Assembly (NCBI GenBank): GCA_029194535.1
Contig: JARFXR010000002.1
Span: 310,001-374,000 of the forward strand
Source of the DNA: Nitrospira sp.
Lineage (GTDB): Bacteria; Nitrospirota; Nitrospiria; Nitrospirales; Nitrospiraceae
Reading direction: 5' to 3'
DNA length: 64,000 nucleotides
The translations under genes and the position numbers were made by a program. Below are positions 4,704 through 33,105 of this stretch, one piece after another. The notes below the pieces were generated by a model. That model did no database searches. It was not told the origin of the DNA and saw only the letters and a program-made list of their open reading frames with translations. Positions within the stretch are counted from its first letter, which is position 1. Every line of letters starts with the position of its first letter.

Positions 4704-4770
4704 AAGGGCAGGCCCGGGCTGGAGGCTCTCTCCGCTCGCAGCCACAGAGCGCCGGTCATGGGTCCTGTCA

Positions 4771-4849
4771 ATGACCTGGAGCCTCGCCGTCCTCGCACCC
4801 CCGCCCGGTGTAGGGACCCCCGCTGCGGGCCGATGAGACTCCAGGTCAT
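4771..4849. repeat. Hairpin-flanked copy (A) of a dispersed GC-rich repeat
   Basis: An exact 11-bp inverted repeat, atgacctggag at 4771-4781 and its complement at 4839-4849, encloses a GC-rich segment. The 30 bases at 4798-4827 match the reverse complement of 31704-31733 at 28 of 30 positions. The element lies between tenA and the HEAT-repeat gene, where it may act as a transcription barrier; there is no T-run. Confidence 0.6.
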
Positions 4850-4967
4850 CGCCGCCCCTTCAGCAGTAGAGTGTATTTGCCCCAACGGCGCTCTGATTTC
4901 GCTTCGAGACCCTCCCAGCCTCCCGCCGGTTGTGATACGTCATCACTTGCCAGGAACGGGAGAGAGG

Positions 4968-6053
4968 GTGAAGAAAGATTCATTAGACATTCGAATTTCT
5001 GTATATCAGAAAGGCGGAGTGAACACGGAACAGGCTGTTTCTCATACCATCCTCACTCCGCGGCGAATCGCGGGGCATGTCCTTGCCTTGGTGATCGGTG
5101 CCGGCCTGTTGGGACTGACGTTCTGGCTGCACACCGGCGCTCGGGCCGTGCCTGGAATCATCGAGGATTTGCAGGGCCATGATTTACAGGCTCAGATGCT
5201 GGCGGCACAATGGCTGTCGGAGTCGGGCGAGGATGCGCGTCCCGCTGTGCCCCTGCTCGTCGATCTGGCTCTCCACCATACAAATTGGCTTATGCGGACT
5301 TCGGCGACAGCCGCGCTCCGGTCTGTGGATCTTCAGGCGGCTCGCCGAGTGATGCAAGAGTCCTTGCCGGGCCTCAGCGACTCGGATGCGGACGTCAGAC
5401 GTCACACCTGCTCCCTGCTCGGCAGTCTGGGACTGCTCGCGAAGCCGGCCGTACCGGCGCTGATCAAGATGCTGGCGGACGAGGACGATCTTGCGCGTGA
5501 ACGAGCGATCGAGGCGCTCGGCGCGATCGGCGTGCCGCAGACCGATGTGTCGGCCGCATTGACGACGGCACTTTTCGATCGGTCTGCGATGGTCCGACAT
5601 CGCGCCGTCTCGCTGTTCGCCTTTGCCGTCCCGATCCCGACCACGGCGCTCGCCCCGTTGGCCGGCCTGCAGAAAGACCCGGACAAGACCGTCGCCTCGC
5701 TGGCACGGATCGCGTTGGATCGCGGCGGCGGTGTCCATCGCACCGACGTCCAGATGCTCATGGCGCGACTGCAACGGCGGGACGGCCGGGAGGACGCATT
5801 GCAGCAGCTCGCCAGACTGGGACCGCCGGCGGCGGAAGCGGTACCCGCGATCATCCCCTTCCTCAACGACCGCCTCCCCCTGCACCGGTACCTGGCGGTC
5901 GAAGCGCTTGGGGCCATCGGCCCCGCCGCCGCTCAGGCTCTGTCTGCTCTTGGACAGACCCGTGCCGACCAGGACCCTGTCGTCCGCGATGCGGTGGCGG
6001 ACGCCCTGCGGTCGATCGAATCGGCGCCGCTCAGGAACGGAGGACCACCGTGA
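4968..6053 (+). CDS. HEAT-repeat protein with one N-terminal membrane segment
   Basis: 361 residues from a GTG at 4968 preceded by GGGAGAGAGG; a second GTG at 5019 is a possible alternative. A single hydrophobic segment at about residues 35-54 is followed by a long alpha-helical repeat region whose units have the HEAT pattern (for example PAVPALIKMLADEDDLARERAIEALGAIG style units, recurring about every 35-40 residues). Such scaffolds bind other proteins; no catalytic motif is visible. The helical repeats would lie on one side of the membrane, probably outside. Its stop overlaps the next gene's start as GTGA, so the two are probably translated together. Open frame upstream of the chosen start covers repeat A and is probably not translated. 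Confidence 0.72.
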   Translation: MKKDSLDIRISVYQKGGVNTEQAVSHTILTPRRIAGHVLALVIGAGLLGLTFWLHTGARAVPGIIEDLQGHDLQAQMLAAQWLSESGEDARPAVPLLVDLALHHTNWLMRTSATAALRSVDLQAARRVMQESLPGLSDSDADVRRHTCSLLGSLGLLAKPAVPALIKMLADEDDLARERAIEALGAIGVPQTDVSAALTTALFDRSAMVRHRAVSLFAFAVPIPTTALAPLAGLQKDPDKTVASLARIALDRGGGVHRTDVQMLMARLQRRDGREDALQQLARLGPPAAEAVPAIIPFLNDRLPLHRYLAVEALGAIGPAAAQALSALGQTRADQDPVVRDAVADALRSIESAPLRNGGPP

Positions 6054-28403: not shown

Positions 28404-29846
28404 TCAAGGGACGGGGCTCGAAACAGTTGTTGCGTGAGCCTGCAGGTCTTGCAAAAGCCTTTGGAACTCCTTGTCGTTCCTGAGAAGGCGGGTCGCTGCG
28501 AGAAGCAGTCGCTCAATCTGCTCATCGGTGAGAGAAAGGTTGGTCGGGATGTTCATGAGATAGTCATGCTCTTCCGGGTTCTCCACTTCCGTCAGACTGG
28601 CATTGATGAAATAGATGTCGGCATCGGGGGCAAAGGCGCTATCTCCGCGAGGCTGCCGGCGAAGCTCCGTTTTCCAGTTCTCGACAGCTTGCCTCATGAG
28701 CTGGAATGTATCCGTGGAATATCGATTGATCGGAATATCGATGAAGGCGCGACTGACGCGTGAGAGGCCCGGGATTTCGCTCAATTGGTATTGGTTGACG
28801 TCCGGTGCGGTCTCGGCGCTGACCATGAGATACACCAGTTTTCTGATATTGTTGACCCCGAGCAACTTGAAATAGGACTCAAGATCTCCCACGAGCGCAG
28901 CCGTCTCCAAGACGCTGCGCATGCCGATATTGTCGGACAGCCCCCCGTCTAACAGATGGACATAGGGACGTTTCTTGGCGTCGAGGTACGACCGGAGTTC
29001 GTTCGCCCGTTGCCGCCCCCAGGAGGTTGCACGCTCCTTTACAAATCTGGGAGGCACTTGAAAGCCGCATTGCCCTGCGTAGTTCTTCAGCGAAATCGGG
29101 CTCAGGATGAGAGGCAATGCGCTGGACGAGGCGGTGGCAACGGACAGGGGAAGCTGATTGAGATCGGAACAAATCAGGTCGAATTGCCGCTGGTTGAACT
29201 CGAAACGCGAAAGCGTCGCCATGTCCGACGCGTGAACGAAGACAATCGGTCGTCGATGCTGTTCGACGAGATCCCCGAAGGTGTGCCCGTCAAACAGCGC
29301 TTCGTCGAGCAGTTCCGAAAAGACATGAGCCCGGCCGAAATAGGGAGACCACATCCGGAACCAGTTAGAGGGGGACCAGAAGACACGCGATTCAAGTTCG
29401 CTCTCCCAATCCTTTCTGAGGAACCGGTACTCAAAATCGTGAAAGATCCGGTCGCCGTACAGCGCGAAGTAGGCCGCCGTGAAGCTGCCGCCGGACAGGG
29501 CATTGATGATATTCAGCTCGTCGACCAGGCGTTCGTTTCGTCCTTCCCACCTGATCTGGGTTCGCGCCAGTTCCCGCAACACGCCGTAGGATAGAGCAGA
29601 CGCCCGCGCGCCGCCGCCGGAGAAGGAGGCAATGATAAACAGACCGTCGGAATTGCCGGTCGGAGGGGGAGGGAAGTTCGTCGATCGATATCCATAGTTC
29701 ACATCCCATTGTTTGAGCGGAGCGTTCACGGTCGGCCGGACATATTCGCAACCTGATACTAGACTCAACAAAATAAAGACGAGCCACGCACCGCCGAAAG
29801 AACAAATTGCGTCTTTCGACACCTTCCCGGGACCGCCTCCGCTCAT
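28404..29846 (-). CDS. Patatin-like phospholipase, predicted lipoprotein
   Basis: 480 residues. A lipoprotein signal ends LLSLVSGC. The patatin domain has the oxyanion loop FSGGGARASALSYGVL, the nucleophile in NALSGGSFTAAYF and the catalytic Asp in LLDGGLSDNIGMR, so the Ser-Asp dyad is complete. It would be anchored to the envelope and hydrolyse phospholipid or other acyl esters. The C-terminal 100 residues end in a helical region of unknown role. Its ATG overlaps the stop of the VOC gene (29843-29846), so the two are co-translated. Confidence 0.87.
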   Translation of the reverse strand: MSGGGPGKVSKDAICSFGGAWLVFILLSLVSGCEYVRPTVNAPLKQWDVNYGYRSTNFPPPPTGNSDGLFIIASFSGGGARASALSYGVLRELARTQIRWEGRNERLVDELNIINALSGGSFTAAYFALYGDRIFHDFEYRFLRKDWESELESRVFWSPSNWFRMWSPYFGRAHVFSELLDEALFDGHTFGDLVEQHRRPIVFVHASDMATLSRFEFNQRQFDLICSDLNQLPLSVATASSSALPLILSPISLKNYAGQCGFQVPPRFVKERATSWGRQRANELRSYLDAKKRPYVHLLDGGLSDNIGMRSVLETAALVGDLESYFKLLGVNNIRKLVYLMVSAETAPDVNQYQLSEIPGLSRVSRAFIDIPINRYSTDTFQLMRQAVENWKTELRRQPRGDSAFAPDADIYFINASLTEVENPEEHDYLMNIPTNLSLTDEQIERLLLAATRLLRNDKEFQRLLQDLQAHATTVSSPVP

Positions 29847-30211
29847 TCGGCCTTCCTCCGATGAATTGTCACGGAATTTCCATCAGGATCTGAAACGACC
29901 GCCATATGGCACACCGGCGTCTCCTTCGGCTCAAGGCGGAACGGACAGCCGCTTGATCTGAGGCGCGCGATCGCCGTGTCGAAGTCTTCCACTTTAAGTC
30001 CAACCGAACCGCCGTCGGCTGACGGCGTCCAATCGGGCGCGCTGTTGACGAGGGCAAGCGTGCCCGACCCGATATCGTATTCCACGAATCCCTGATGATT
30101 CGTCCCGAAGAACCGTGTTTCCTTCAGACCCAAAACCCCTACATAGAAGCGACGAGCGCGCTGTAGGGCCGTCACCGGATAACAGGTGAACGCGATCTCG
30201 GCCACCTTCAT
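29843..30211 (-). CDS. VOC-family (glyoxalase/dioxygenase fold) protein
   Basis: 122 residues from an ATG at 30211 with GAGAGGAG upstream. The beta-alpha-beta-beta-beta repeat is visible: ARRFYVGVLGLKETRFF, VEYDIGSGTLALV, VEDFDTAIARLRSSGCPF and the C-terminal SDPDGNSVTIH. Metal ligands and substrate are not clear. It lies first in a two-gene unit with the patatin lipoprotein. Confidence 0.85.
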   Translation of the reverse strand: MKVAEIAFTCYPVTALQRARRFYVGVLGLKETRFFGTNHQGFVEYDIGSGTLALVNSAPDWTPSADGGSVGLKVEDFDTAIARLRSSGCPFRLEPKETPVCHMAVVSDPDGNSVTIHRRKAE

Positions 30212-30374
30212 GTGACGCTCCTCTCTCATAGCTCGGACGGCTTGATCAGGCCGACCTGCCAGCGCGCCGTTTCGGTGCTCTGAGCCGGCGGATTCTTGCG
30301 CGTGTCCAGCGCCATGTCAACGCCCATTGATCGGAGATTTCCAATTCACGATTAATACCGCAGGTGGTGTGGCG
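30212..30374. other. Gap with a 33-codon minus-strand frame
   Basis: A short minus-strand frame (30226-30327, ATG to TGA) ends just before the VOC ribosome binding site and would read MGVDMALDTRKNPP and so on. It has a weak ribosome binding site and no recognised family; it may be a leader peptide or a remnant. Nothing else is seen before the repeat at 30375. Confidence 0.3.
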
Positions 30375-30468
30375 AACGGGGCAACGTGCTCACCCGCCCA
30401 ACCCGCCGCGCCGAGACGCGGCTATTCTCCACGCGCGCGGAACGGAAGGGACCCACTGGGGATGGCTA
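30375..30468. repeat. Dispersed GC-rich repeat, copy C
   Basis: Shares cgcgccgagacgcggct (30407-30423) exactly with 31673-31689, flanked in both copies by ctcaccc-cccaac/cag on the left and cgcgcg-gggaccc on the right. Intergenic, upstream of the RnfD-like gene. Confidence 0.6.
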
Positions 30469-30598
30469 GAGTGAGTACGGTGGGGCTGTGCGTCACGACA
30501 GGACCCGCGAAATGATTTCACAAGTTCACTTTTGCCCATGAAAGGATTGTGCAGCTCGCGCCATACCATAGATAGGCCAACCATTCGCAAGGTGCCGG

Positions 30599-31486
30599 AT
30601 GAGCTTCCACGATACCCTGTCCAGGTTCTCGTCGCTCGATCCCCGCTTCTATCAAATCATCAGTCTTGGAACGCTGCTGTCGTACGGTCTGCTGTGGCTA
30701 CACTTCGACGTCTCGATCGCCCAGGTGGCCATGACGGTCGGAGCAGCCCTGCTGACGCAATATACCGGGATGCGCTGGCACAAGCTTCCATCCTTCGACC
30801 CTCTGAGCGCGATCATTTCCGCCCTGGGGCTGTGCATCTTTCTCCGCACCACCGATCTGTCTATCGTCGCGCTGACCTCCTTCCTCGCCGTTGCCAGCAA
30901 ATTTGTCATCCGCTGGAAGAATAAGCACATCTTCAACCCGACCAATTTTGCGCTGATCATTGTGGTCGCGACGGGTCTCGGCTGGATCTCGCCCGGTCAA
31001 TGGGGACAAGTGGCATGGTTCGGATTTCTGATCGCCTGTCTGGGCAGCCTTGTGGTCACACGCGCCGCCCGCGCCGACGTCACGCTCTCGTTTCTTGGTT
31101 TCTATGTCGGGCTGCTTGTGGCTCGCGCGGTCTGGCTCGGGGACCCGCTCACGATTCCCCTGCATCAAATCGAAAGCGGCACGTTGCTCATCTTTTCCTT
31201 TTTCATGATCACGGACCCGAAGACGACGCCGGACTCCCGCGCGGGCCGTGTCTTCTTCGCTTGCCTCGTGGCTGGTTCCGCACTCTTCGTTCAGTTTGTT
31301 TTGTTCCGTCCCCACGGCCCGCTATGGGGCCTGATCGTCTGTTCGCCGCTCGTCCCGTTGATCGACCATCTACTTCCCGGTTCTCGCTACGCTTGGTCCA
31401 AGCCTACAACCGGAGAATTCTCGTTAAGCATCTCCACCTCTGCGCTCGTTCCCTTGTCCACATCACAACAAAGGAGGATCTCATGA
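30599..31486 (+). CDS. RnfD/NqrB-like membrane protein
   Basis: 295 residues, about 9 hydrophobic helices. The segments KHIFNPTNFAL, FFMITDPKTTPDSRAGRV and the overall helix pattern resemble the RnfD/NqrB family of flavin-carrying ion-pump subunits. The Thr usually flavinylated (SGAT-type motif) is not clearly present; TDPKTTPDS lies in the corresponding region. No other Rnf/Nqr gene is nearby, so a full ion-pumping complex is not encoded here. The last codons overlap the ribosome binding site and start of the next gene. Confidence 0.7.
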   Translation: MSFHDTLSRFSSLDPRFYQIISLGTLLSYGLLWLHFDVSIAQVAMTVGAALLTQYTGMRWHKLPSFDPLSAIISALGLCIFLRTTDLSIVALTSFLAVASKFVIRWKNKHIFNPTNFALIIVVATGLGWISPGQWGQVAWFGFLIACLGSLVVTRAARADVTLSFLGFYVGLLVARAVWLGDPLTIPLHQIESGTLLIFSFFMITDPKTTPDSRAGRVFFACLVAGSALFVQFVLFRPHGPLWGLIVCSPLVPLIDHLLPGSRYAWSKPTTGEFSLSISTSALVPLSTSQQRRIS

Positions 31487-33105
31487 GGAGTCATAACACC
31501 GAGACAGATGGCTTTGGGCAGAGGGATGGGCGTGGTGCTGTTCTGGAAGTCCTGCCGCCGCAGCGAGCACTTCGTCCCTTCATCTTCTTTAAAGATCCCG
31601 GAGTTTGTGACTCTGCATCCGTGCGCGGATGGCGGCGAGCGGGCGCCATTCTCACCCACCCAGGCCCTGACGCGCGCCGAGACGCGGCTCTTACCCATGC
31701 GCGCGCAGCGGGGGACCCCACACCGGGCGGGGGGGCGAGCACAGTTGGGCTGTTCGCCGATAGGATCCGCCTCCTCTTCATTTCGTTAATCATGGTTGGT
31801 CTGGTAGTCGCATGGAGCACCACCGCCTCCGCCTTTTGCGGCTTCTACGTCGGCAAGGCCGACACCAAACTCTTCAACAAGGCCTCCGAAGTGGCGATCG
31901 CCCGCCATACCGACAAGACCGTACTCACGATGGCGAATGACTTCACCGGCGACGTGAAGGAGTTTGCACTGGTCGTCCCCGTGCCGGTCGTGCTGCAGAA
32001 GGACCAGATCCACGTCGGCAACCCGGCCGTCCTGAAACACCTGGCCGACTATTCGGCACCGAGGCTCGTCGAATACTTCGACGAGAACCCCTGCGTGAGA
32101 TATGAGTCCTCGGATCGCAGGATGGACGCCATGAAAAGTCAGGCACCGGCCGCGGCGCCGAGTCGGGAGCGCGAGCGGACGCTGGGCGTGACGGTCGAGG
32201 CCCGGTACGTGGTCGGCGAGTACGACATCCTGATTCTCTCGGCCAAGGAAAGCGCGGGCCTCGAGACCTGGCTCACGGAGAACGGCTATCGCATTCCACA
32301 GGGCGCGTCGGCGGTTCTGCACAGTTATCTGAAACAGAACCTGAAATTCTTCGTCGCCAAAGTCAACCTGGGCGAGCAGGCCAAGCTGGGCTTGACCCAT
32401 CTGCGTCCGTTGCAGATCGCGTTCGAGTCTGCGAAGTTCATGCTGCCGATCCGACTCGGAACAGTGAACGCGGACGGTTCTCAGGAGCTGTTCGCCTACT
32501 TCCTGACGAAACAGGGTCGCGTGGAAACCACGAACTACCGGACGGTGCGGTTGCCCGCCTCACAGGAAGTTCCGCTGTACGTCAAAGACAGGTTCGGCGA
32601 CTTCTATCACGATCTCTTCAATCAACAAGTACGGCGCGAGAACGAGCGCGGGGTCTTCCTGGAATATGCCTGGGACATGACCTGGTGCGACCCCTGTGCC
32701 GCCGATCCCCTGTCGGCTGAAGAACTGCGAAACCTCGGCGTGTTCTGGCAGGACATTTCAGGGCGCTCGCCCAAGGGCATCCCCCAAGCTCAGAACGTCT
32801 TCCTGACACGATTGCACGTCCGCTACGACGCGGCCCACTTTCCTGAAGACTTGCTCTTTCAGGAAACGTCTGACCGGTCGAACTTCCAAGCCCGATACAT
32901 TCTCAGGCATCCCTGGACCGGCACGGACGACTGTCAGGCCGCGGCCGCCTACCGCCAGCACCTGCGTGAGCGGTATGAGCGACAGGCCGAGACTCTGGCG
33001 ACACTGACCGGCTGGAACATCGGCGACATCCGCAAGGCCATGAACATCGCCGCCATTGCCGTGCCGGAGGAAAAAGCCTGGTACCGGCGTTTGTGGAACG
33101 ACTGA
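31483..33105 (+). CDS. DUF2330 exported protein, start region interrupted by a repeat
   Basis: From the ATG at 31483 the protein has 540 residues. The ATG has AAGGAGG at 31471-31477, the best ribosome binding site nearby. The first 95 residues are low complexity and cover repeat copy B. A signal-peptide-like stretch (LLFISLIMVGLVVAWSTTASA) then precedes the DUF2330 domain (FCGFYVGKADTKLFNKASEVAIARH, then TMANDFTGDVKEFALVVPVP), which runs to the end. An ATG at 31792 would remove the basic part of the signal, and no ATG, GTG or TTG occurs in frame in between. The function of DUF2330 is unknown; the domain is usually extracytoplasmic. Confidence 0.75.
   Translation: MRSHNTETDGFGQRDGRGAVLEVLPPQRALRPFIFFKDPGVCDSASVRGWRRAGAILTHPGPDARRDAALTHARAAGDPTPGGGASTVGLFADRIRLLFISLIMVGLVVAWSTTASAFCGFYVGKADTKLFNKASEVAIARHTDKTVLTMANDFTGDVKEFALVVPVPVVLQKDQIHVGNPAVLKHLADYSAPRLVEYFDENPCVRYESSDRRMDAMKSQAPAAAPSRERERTLGVTVEARYVVGEYDILILSAKESAGLETWLTENGYRIPQGASAVLHSYLKQNLKFFVAKVNLGEQAKLGLTHLRPLQIAFESAKFMLPIRLGTVNADGSQELFAYFLTKQGRVETTNYRTVRLPASQEVPLYVKDRFGDFYHDLFNQQVRRENERGVFLEYAWDMTWCDPCAADPLSAEELRNLGVFWQDISGRSPKGIPQAQNVFLTRLHVRYDAAHFPEDLLFQETSDRSNFQARYILRHPWTGTDDCQAAAAYRQHLRERYERQAETLATLTGWNIGDIRKAMNIAAIAVPEEKAWYRRLWND
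31620..31735. repeat. Dispersed GC-rich repeat, copy B
   Basis: This copy links the family: it shares 28 of 30 bases with copy A (31704-31733 against 4798-4827), 17 exact bases with copy C (31673-31689), and tctcacccacccag with copy D in the reverse orientation. It sits inside the 5' part of the DUF2330 reading frame. Confidence 0.6.

Follow-up and report, generated by a model that had tools for sequence, protein, structure and literature searches.

The closest described relatives of the locus reported here are two kinds of dispersed palindrome and one kind of long signal peptide. Rickettsia palindromic elements (RPEs), about 150 bp in length, are fused in frame into protein genes, and the review of miniature inverted-repeat transposable elements that describes them calls a similar mechanism elsewhere conceivable (PMC10969869). 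Repetitive extragenic palindromic sequences (REPs) are short palindromes outside genes, and Nitrospira moscoviensis has a row among the bulk REP counts of PMC12306157. Long autotransporter signal sequences, as described in PMC2805444, carry an N-terminal extension ahead of the Sec signal. Here we analyse 64,000 nucleotides from Nitrospira sp. (assembly GCA_029194535.1, contig JARFXR010000002.1, positions 310,001 to 374,000; hereafter the window), in which a copy of a dispersed palindromic element, copy B, stands in frame between the start codon and the export signal of a gene for a DUF2330 protein. The window is C2:310001-374000 of a 3.98-Mb genome in five contigs (G000; G, C and L denote genomes, contigs and loci in our numbering). 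Coordinates are window positions on the forward strand unless stated otherwise.

Judging from sequence comparison, we consider it probable that an in-frame insertion of ~279 bp between a translationally coupled start and the signal peptide has put a long cytoplasmic leader on a signal peptide that still works from an internal position. The sequences show directly that the insertion is there, that it keeps the frame, that 45 of 48 orthologues lack it, and that signal and mature domain are intact. A ribosome binding site, AAGGAGG (31471-31477), precedes the ATG start (31483-31485) in the arrangement AAGGAGG-N5-ATGA, and the reading frame from this ATG is open for 540 codons, until 33105. PF10092/DUF2330 covers residues 115-459 of the product (268.3 bits vs. 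a curated Pfam cut-off of 24.7, E value 9e-80); the mature protein and its stop codon occupy 31834-33105. Immediately upstream lies a gene for an NQR2/RnfD/RnfE-like membrane protein (30599-31486; PF03116, E 4.8e-13), and because its TGA stop overlaps the DUF2330 start as ATGA, we take ATG 31483 to be the ancestral start. A Shine-Dalgarno-like site and an ATG also stand exactly 24 codons ahead of the conserved FCGFYV motif in 42 of 48 orthologues. Both observations agree with the natural start that the initial annotation, made from the letters of this stretch, had placed at 31471-31485.

The orthologues come from a whole-genome search with a DUF2330 query, which matched 12 of 61 genomes, and from a query that joined the leader to the beginning of the mature part, which matched 79 of 175, repeat copies and signal-only matches included. 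Of 103 loci extracted from genome contigs 80 were kept, and merging exact duplicates and dropping loci short of upstream DNA left 48 distinct Nitrospira orthologues. L026 (too little upstream DNA) and L057 (5' end cut off) are outside the spacing count, as are six repeat matches lacking the DUF2330 motif (L123, L124, L126, L128, L134, and L147); further genomes with DUF2330 matched only from the signal onward fall outside the leader comparison. Counting only in-frame ATG, GTG or TTG codons with a Shine-Dalgarno-like word, we found the distance from start to FCGFYV to be 24 codons in 42 orthologues (L017, L035, L036, and L048 among them have a second, farther start candidate too), 23 in one and 32 in two, so that 45 of 48 fall between 23 and 32. 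The three extended cases are the window with 117 codons, Nitrospira sp. CR1.3 (G003) with 96 and HEB_FP_1_bin.25 (G006) with 47, which amounts to 93, 72, and 23 extra codons. Since the NQR2 stop adjoins the same ATG in all three, one base behind it, a feature found independently of the in-frame search, these extensions begin at the ancestral start and in frame. A long leader ancestral to the family was considered and dropped, given its absence from the 45 others. The proposals of an insertion into the leader and of an unusually long leader are thus supported, and an orthologue with the extra residues but lacking the repeat or a piece of it was sought and not found among the 48, barring two 8-codon extensions. 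These two, L045 and L067, have a second ATG at the usual place and represent another kind of short leader extension.

The insertion in the window measures 279 nt (93 codons) and has two parts, 45 codons of unique DNA followed by a 146-bp repeat copy. The unique part (31486-31620) has no meaningful match in the 175 family genomes: with up to four candidates scored per genome, the only strong hit is itself and the next best has an E value of 0.0025 over 22 nt. Another known element as the source of these 135 bp was considered and set aside, nothing strong having appeared among those candidates, at most four in each genome. Copy B (31625-31770), of the long type, is read in frame (GWRRAGAILTHPGP...GLFADRIR), and its end contributes the first three codons of the export signal. 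Its outer stem pairs GCGGAT (31625-31630) with ATCCGC (31765-31770), a double change relative to the family consensus GCGGGT/ACCCGC, and the five best other copies in the genome match it with E values of 2.7e-32, 5.6e-29, 4.0e-21, 5.0e-17, and 1.7e-16. The initial annotation had about 95 low-complexity residues covering the repeat; the long stretch stands, at 93 codons, and the repeat accounts for about half of it. In G003, the repeat follows the same start in the orientation and frame seen in the window, and in G006 only the 3' end of the element is present, behind the start codon and in another frame. At this G006 locus (L050, ~4905-5045), a new ATG lies just behind the element's 3' end (AGGA-N7-ATG). 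The G006 arrangement may represent a later step, with the signal regaining a start of its own.

Downstream of the insertion, the export signal appears intact. For 48 orthologues, the 24 residues that lead up to FCGFYV were lined up as one block free of gaps; this set differs from the spacing set by one (L026 in, L055 out). The window's 24-codon signal (31762-31833) fits without gaps beside the other 47, with cleavage predicted before F (31834), which makes the presequence 117 residues long. In RIRLLFISLIMVGLVVAWSTTASA, followed by F, the features of a Sec signal cut by signal peptidase I can be recognized, namely, a positive n-region, a hydrophobic core and AxA before the predicted cut. The AxA-like motif is kept in 48 of 48 orthologues, and the initial methionine of the signal is replaced in the three extended proteins (R, L, and N). 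The window's segment is intact and the second most hydrophobic of the 48; peak hydropathy is 3.01, 2.75, and 2.60 in the extended three, whereas the other 45 span 1.79-3.10 around a median of 2.42 (p 0.015 in a one-sided Mann-Whitney test, a post hoc comparison of three sequences). The mature part, set against that of an insert-free sister (G001), has a nonsynonymous divergence (dN) of 0.076 and a synonymous divergence (dS) of 0.64, a ratio (w) of 0.12; w is 0.07 between window and G003 and 0.06-0.07 in four other pairs. In the tree of the mature gene, the window branch is not longer than that of G001 (0.079 vs. 0.14).

This conservation bears on whether the insertion has inactivated export, leaving the protein stuck in the cytoplasm or the gene becoming a pseudogene, which we regard as improbable. 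Codon use in the leader is not gene-like, as such inactivation would have it (log-odds per codon 0.013 for the leader overall, -0.077 for its unique part and -0.021 for the repeat, vs. 0.317 for the mature part), and n-regions this long are unusual. Against it, the 540 codons contain no frameshift, signal and cleavage motif are intact, w is low and the branch is not long; moreover, the in-frame copy of G003, if it is the same insertion, stayed open while synonymous sites neared saturation. The earlier suggestion that the insertion may inactivate export finds no support in a comparison in which signal segment, cleavage motif and mature domain all appear conserved.

In the reading that we favour, ribosomes would still initiate at ATG 31483 by ATGA coupling and produce a 540-residue precursor. 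Its first ~93 residues, disordered and rich in arginine, would remain in the cytoplasm as a tail. The former N-terminal signal peptide, now internal and strongly hydrophobic, would serve as the Sec signal; a cut by signal peptidase I after TASA would free the usual mature protein, and the ~117-residue presequence would be discarded. An AlphaFold2 model built from 33 sequences has residues 1-89 as coil, with a predicted local distance difference test (pLDDT) score below 50 nearly throughout, and a single helix at 90-110 before the DUF2330 domain.

Translation might instead start within or behind the insertion, at ATG 31792, GTG 31621 or a near-cognate codon, with the leader mostly untranslated. 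The new ATG of G006 lends this some credit, and the window's leader holds nine near-cognate codons in frame besides the ATG and the GTG, the latter overlooked in the initial annotation, whose claim that no in-frame ATG, GTG or TTG precedes 31792 was wrong by this one codon. We nevertheless think such a start unlikely: neither ATG 31792 nor GTG 31621 has a Shine-Dalgarno site, the former would leave a 14-residue signal with no charged n-region, and the latter would still keep the whole repeat. An untranslated leader would also not need an open frame, yet the frame is open in both the window and G003, an argument that is weak in G+C-rich DNA.

A long leader on a working signal has a parallel in the relation of DUF2330 to its upstream neighbour. 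Among 39 distinct orthologues, the window counted, NQR2 and DUF2330 form one frame in 14, overlap as ATGA in 22 or as TGATG in 2, and are separate in 1; outside this set are L026, L055, L056, and L058 (no NQR2 motif) and L059 (a duplicate of G034). Both Pfam domains lie on one protein in G001, and the fused state and its alternative require seven changes by parsimony on the mature-gene tree, whose forks are weak. Because in these 14 of 39 the signal segment is internal to a single NQR2-DUF2330 frame, extension at the N terminus may be nothing unusual for this family, which lends indirect support to the idea that such an extension is no bar to export. The fused frames resemble the window in holding the same signal segment inside a longer frame; they differ in that their extension is the neighbouring membrane protein, whereas that of the window is unique DNA plus a repeat. 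Our literature search found no account of an NQR2 fusion in Nitrospira. Two incomplete genomes of the genus, G002 and G005, gave no DUF2330 match, and the stretches beside Lhr in them (G002:C84:29500-38000 and G005:C214:6500-14000) contain neither NQR2 nor DUF2330. In the window, a patatin-like and a glyoxalase gene (28404-30229) lie between a 156-amino-acid open reading frame (ORF) and NQR2; they were not found in the compared stretches of G001-G006, G019, and G021.

Several points weigh against the reading that we prefer, a working internal signal behind a long leader. The leader's codon use, as given above, is not that of a gene. The structural model has a mean pLDDT of 61.3, which is moderate confidence. 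A good deal of the conservation seen in the comparison with G001 may be older than the insertion. The fused relatives may also make a separate DUF2330 protein, since an internal Shine-Dalgarno-like site and ATG are kept in all 14, and they would then offer no proof that an extension is tolerated. Lastly, the repeat-derived residues have a dN/dS of 0.67 in frame, and the other two frames give 0.88 and 1.24; on ~40 synonymous sites, this hints only weakly, if at all, at constraint on the protein, and protein-level selection on these residues was dropped as a proposal, the sites being too few to decide.

The history of the insertion is a separate question, in which shared descent is slightly favoured over separate hits. 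That copy B is what remains of a single insertion common to the window, G003 and G006, through descent or through recombination of an NQR2-leader segment, is to our minds a little better than an even chance, and it is compatible with a functional long leader. The copies in the window and G003 occupy the same site in the same gene, on the same side and in the same orientation and frame. Among long-type copies the two group with L003 (84/91), and holding them together costs 0.10 log units (approximately unbiased [AU] test, p 0.40). Over its 3' half, copy B is closest to the G003 copy, at 92%, with other copies at 89% or below. The NQR2 protein points the same way: that of the window is only 74% identical to that of G001, no closer than to other species, though both flanks are close, the upstream ORF (which we take to be SnoaL-like) at 94% and the downstream DUF2330, Usp, and presumably Lhr at 84-89%. 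Third-position identity between window and G001 drops along NQR2, from ~0.60 towards its 5' end to 0.27 at its 3' end, a pattern which suggests that an NQR2-leader segment was exchanged or that G001 changed fast there.

Other evidence speaks against a single event. The mature-gene tree joins the window with insert-free G001 (99/94), and making the three extended proteins a clade costs 29.7 log units. A grouping of the three extended species was not taken up, being absent from that tree, and the AU test does not reject it either (p 0.066). The repeat differs by only 14% between window and G003, against a divergence near saturation at the gene's synonymous sites (proportion of synonymous differences, pS, 0.637). 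In its 5' half, copy B matches L003 of the same genome at 93% identity and the G003 copy at 81%. Distances from the copies to the ATG and to the signal differ, and the G006 remnant is in another frame with a new ATG. Moreover, G001 itself is unlike everything in the 3' segment of NQR2 (best identity 0.72), and fast change there could explain the mosaic. A low divergence of the repeat is no proof by itself, for several family copies from different genomes show 92-94% identity over 70-110 nt. Repeated entry of the element into the same start-proximal site of the coupled NQR2-DUF2330 operon, each time in frame and turning a 24-residue signal peptide into an internal signal behind a leader of up to 93 residues, followed by strengthening of the hydrophobic core that kept export going, is a possible but doubtful account. 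Orthology of the further repeat copy that the window and G003 each carry, copy A, was considered and rejected: G003's copy A is 94% identical to another G000 copy vs. 87% to that of the window.

Copy B belongs to a structured family. The short form, ~90-100 bp, begins with GCGGGTGGCG and continues through a variable arm, a conserved loop (CCCGCAGCGGGG..CCCNACACCGGGCGGGGTGCGAG) and a complementary arm to end in GACAGGACCCGC; the long form, copy B included, has ~48 nt more between the 5' arm and the loop. The structure was drawn from 16 of 22 copies in seven genomes (L007, L153, L157, L159, L164, and L171 left out, three rows trimmed). Standard pairs make up 95.1% of pair cells and both-side changes occur in 15 of 31 pairs, figures favoured by the fact that the structure was taken from the alignment on which it is scored. 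Of 500 shuffles, none attains the observed value in four measures, among them the covariation score, and 10 do so in a fifth, that of further pair types; sliding the pair partners by 1-3 columns lowers paired cells to 24-45%. Terminal inverted repeats are present as an outer stem, GCGGGT...ACCCGC, paired in 97.5% of cells in copies that were picked partly by their ends. A covariance model trained on copies from within the genus gives copy numbers of at least 22 in G000, 10 in G001, 15 in G003, 6 in G006, 4 in G021, and 3 each in G004, G019, and G089; with 150 candidates scored per genome, 8 of 12 genomes are positive and G034, G127, G038, and G050 gave no match.

Because the family folds as a covarying hairpin, the leader might be an RNA or attenuator element that controls DUF2330 rather than coding sequence, which we judge very improbable. 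The folding of copy B does not surpass that of shuffled sequence (z 0.15 as RNA, 1.25 as DNA), nor does the G003 copy stand out (RNA z -0.17), with two short copies at -3.56 and -3.26. No terminator-like site was found in 30230-31860 and no Rfam match at cut-off in the seven loci searched, and the leader lies downstream of the start codon. On the z score of 0.15, the missing terminator-like site and the missing Rfam match, the attenuator was dropped. Mobilization as a REP by a REP-associated tyrosine transposase (RAYT) was also set aside, for want of clear support: Y1_Tnp genes are present in three of four genomes, and no element match better than E 0.029 lies within ~1.5 kb on either side of eight Y1_Tnp (RAYT-type) loci in G000, G001, and G003; no convincing copy was seen in these stretches.

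Within G000, the position of copy B appears to be an exception for the family. Of 24 other copies (21 from the model and 3 more by DNA similarity), 21 fall entirely in the intervals between ORFs whose codon use is gene-like, and the remaining 3 reach no farther than the 5' end of an ORF that was called from its first possible start. None of the 24 is interior to a gene-like ORF, so that habitual in-frame insertion was not found there. A copy behind the start codon inside a conserved gene is thus exceptional, within the limits of a rough classifier whose cut-off of 0.15 lies near the mean of 0.165 for 30 training ORFs and which may have missed some genes. The window has two further copies. Copy A (30365-30511), recognized by sequence match, lies upstream of the NQR2-like gene and belongs to a different subfamily. 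The third, of the short type and on the reverse strand (4758-4859), is the best model match in the window (65.9 bits, E 4e-14); it sits between a 229-amino-acid ORF and another ORF, presumably HEAT-repeat-like, whose first possible start is the repeat's edge. In G004, the extra module of the long type occurs in a tandem array with a period of ~47 nt (G004:C1:880694-880929; L160, L166, L170, and L175).

For DUF2330 itself, a sequence search at E 1 found no solved relatives, and our literature search found no paper. The sole structural match below E 0.001 was the baculovirus P35 fold (E 9.8e-4, root-mean-square deviation 12.5, query template-modelling score 0.22), which we distrust and have rejected, as the model has a mean pLDDT of 61.

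The locus offers a natural test of the distance by which a Sec signal may be displaced from the N terminus, with insert-free sister species as controls, and it brings to notice both a structured repeat family and recurrent fusions of the NQR2 and DUF2330 frames. If export is unaffected, the insertion would be evolutionary tinkering without consequence. Like long autotransporter signals (PMC2805444), the window's protein has an N-terminal extension before its Sec signal. In contrast to them, the extension is inserted DNA confined to 3 of 48 orthologues and absent from the other 45, it precedes an unrelated DUF2330 protein, and it lacks clear protein-level constraint; the case is therefore not one of an autotransporter-type extended signal peptide. 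The element resembles REPs and miniature inverted-repeat transposable elements (MITEs) in being short, palindromic, mostly intergenic and present in many copies with no gene of its own seen, and it differs from them in its size of ~90-150 bp, its conserved inner loop and its covarying arms. Searches of the Nitrospira literature under MITE or REP terms found no description of this family by name. With RPEs, compared by their description in PMC10969869, it shares a dispersed palindromic nature, a comparable size and a location in frame inside a protein gene. It differs from them in that 21 of the 24 other G000 copies lie between gene-like ORFs and 3 only at an ORF's 5' end, by the rough classification above, and in belonging to another phylum. 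In-frame palindromic repeats are thus already known from Rickettsia, whereas the Nitrospira family and its site look new, and the locus adds an instance from beyond Rickettsia of a palindromic repeat supplying coding sequence to a conserved gene.

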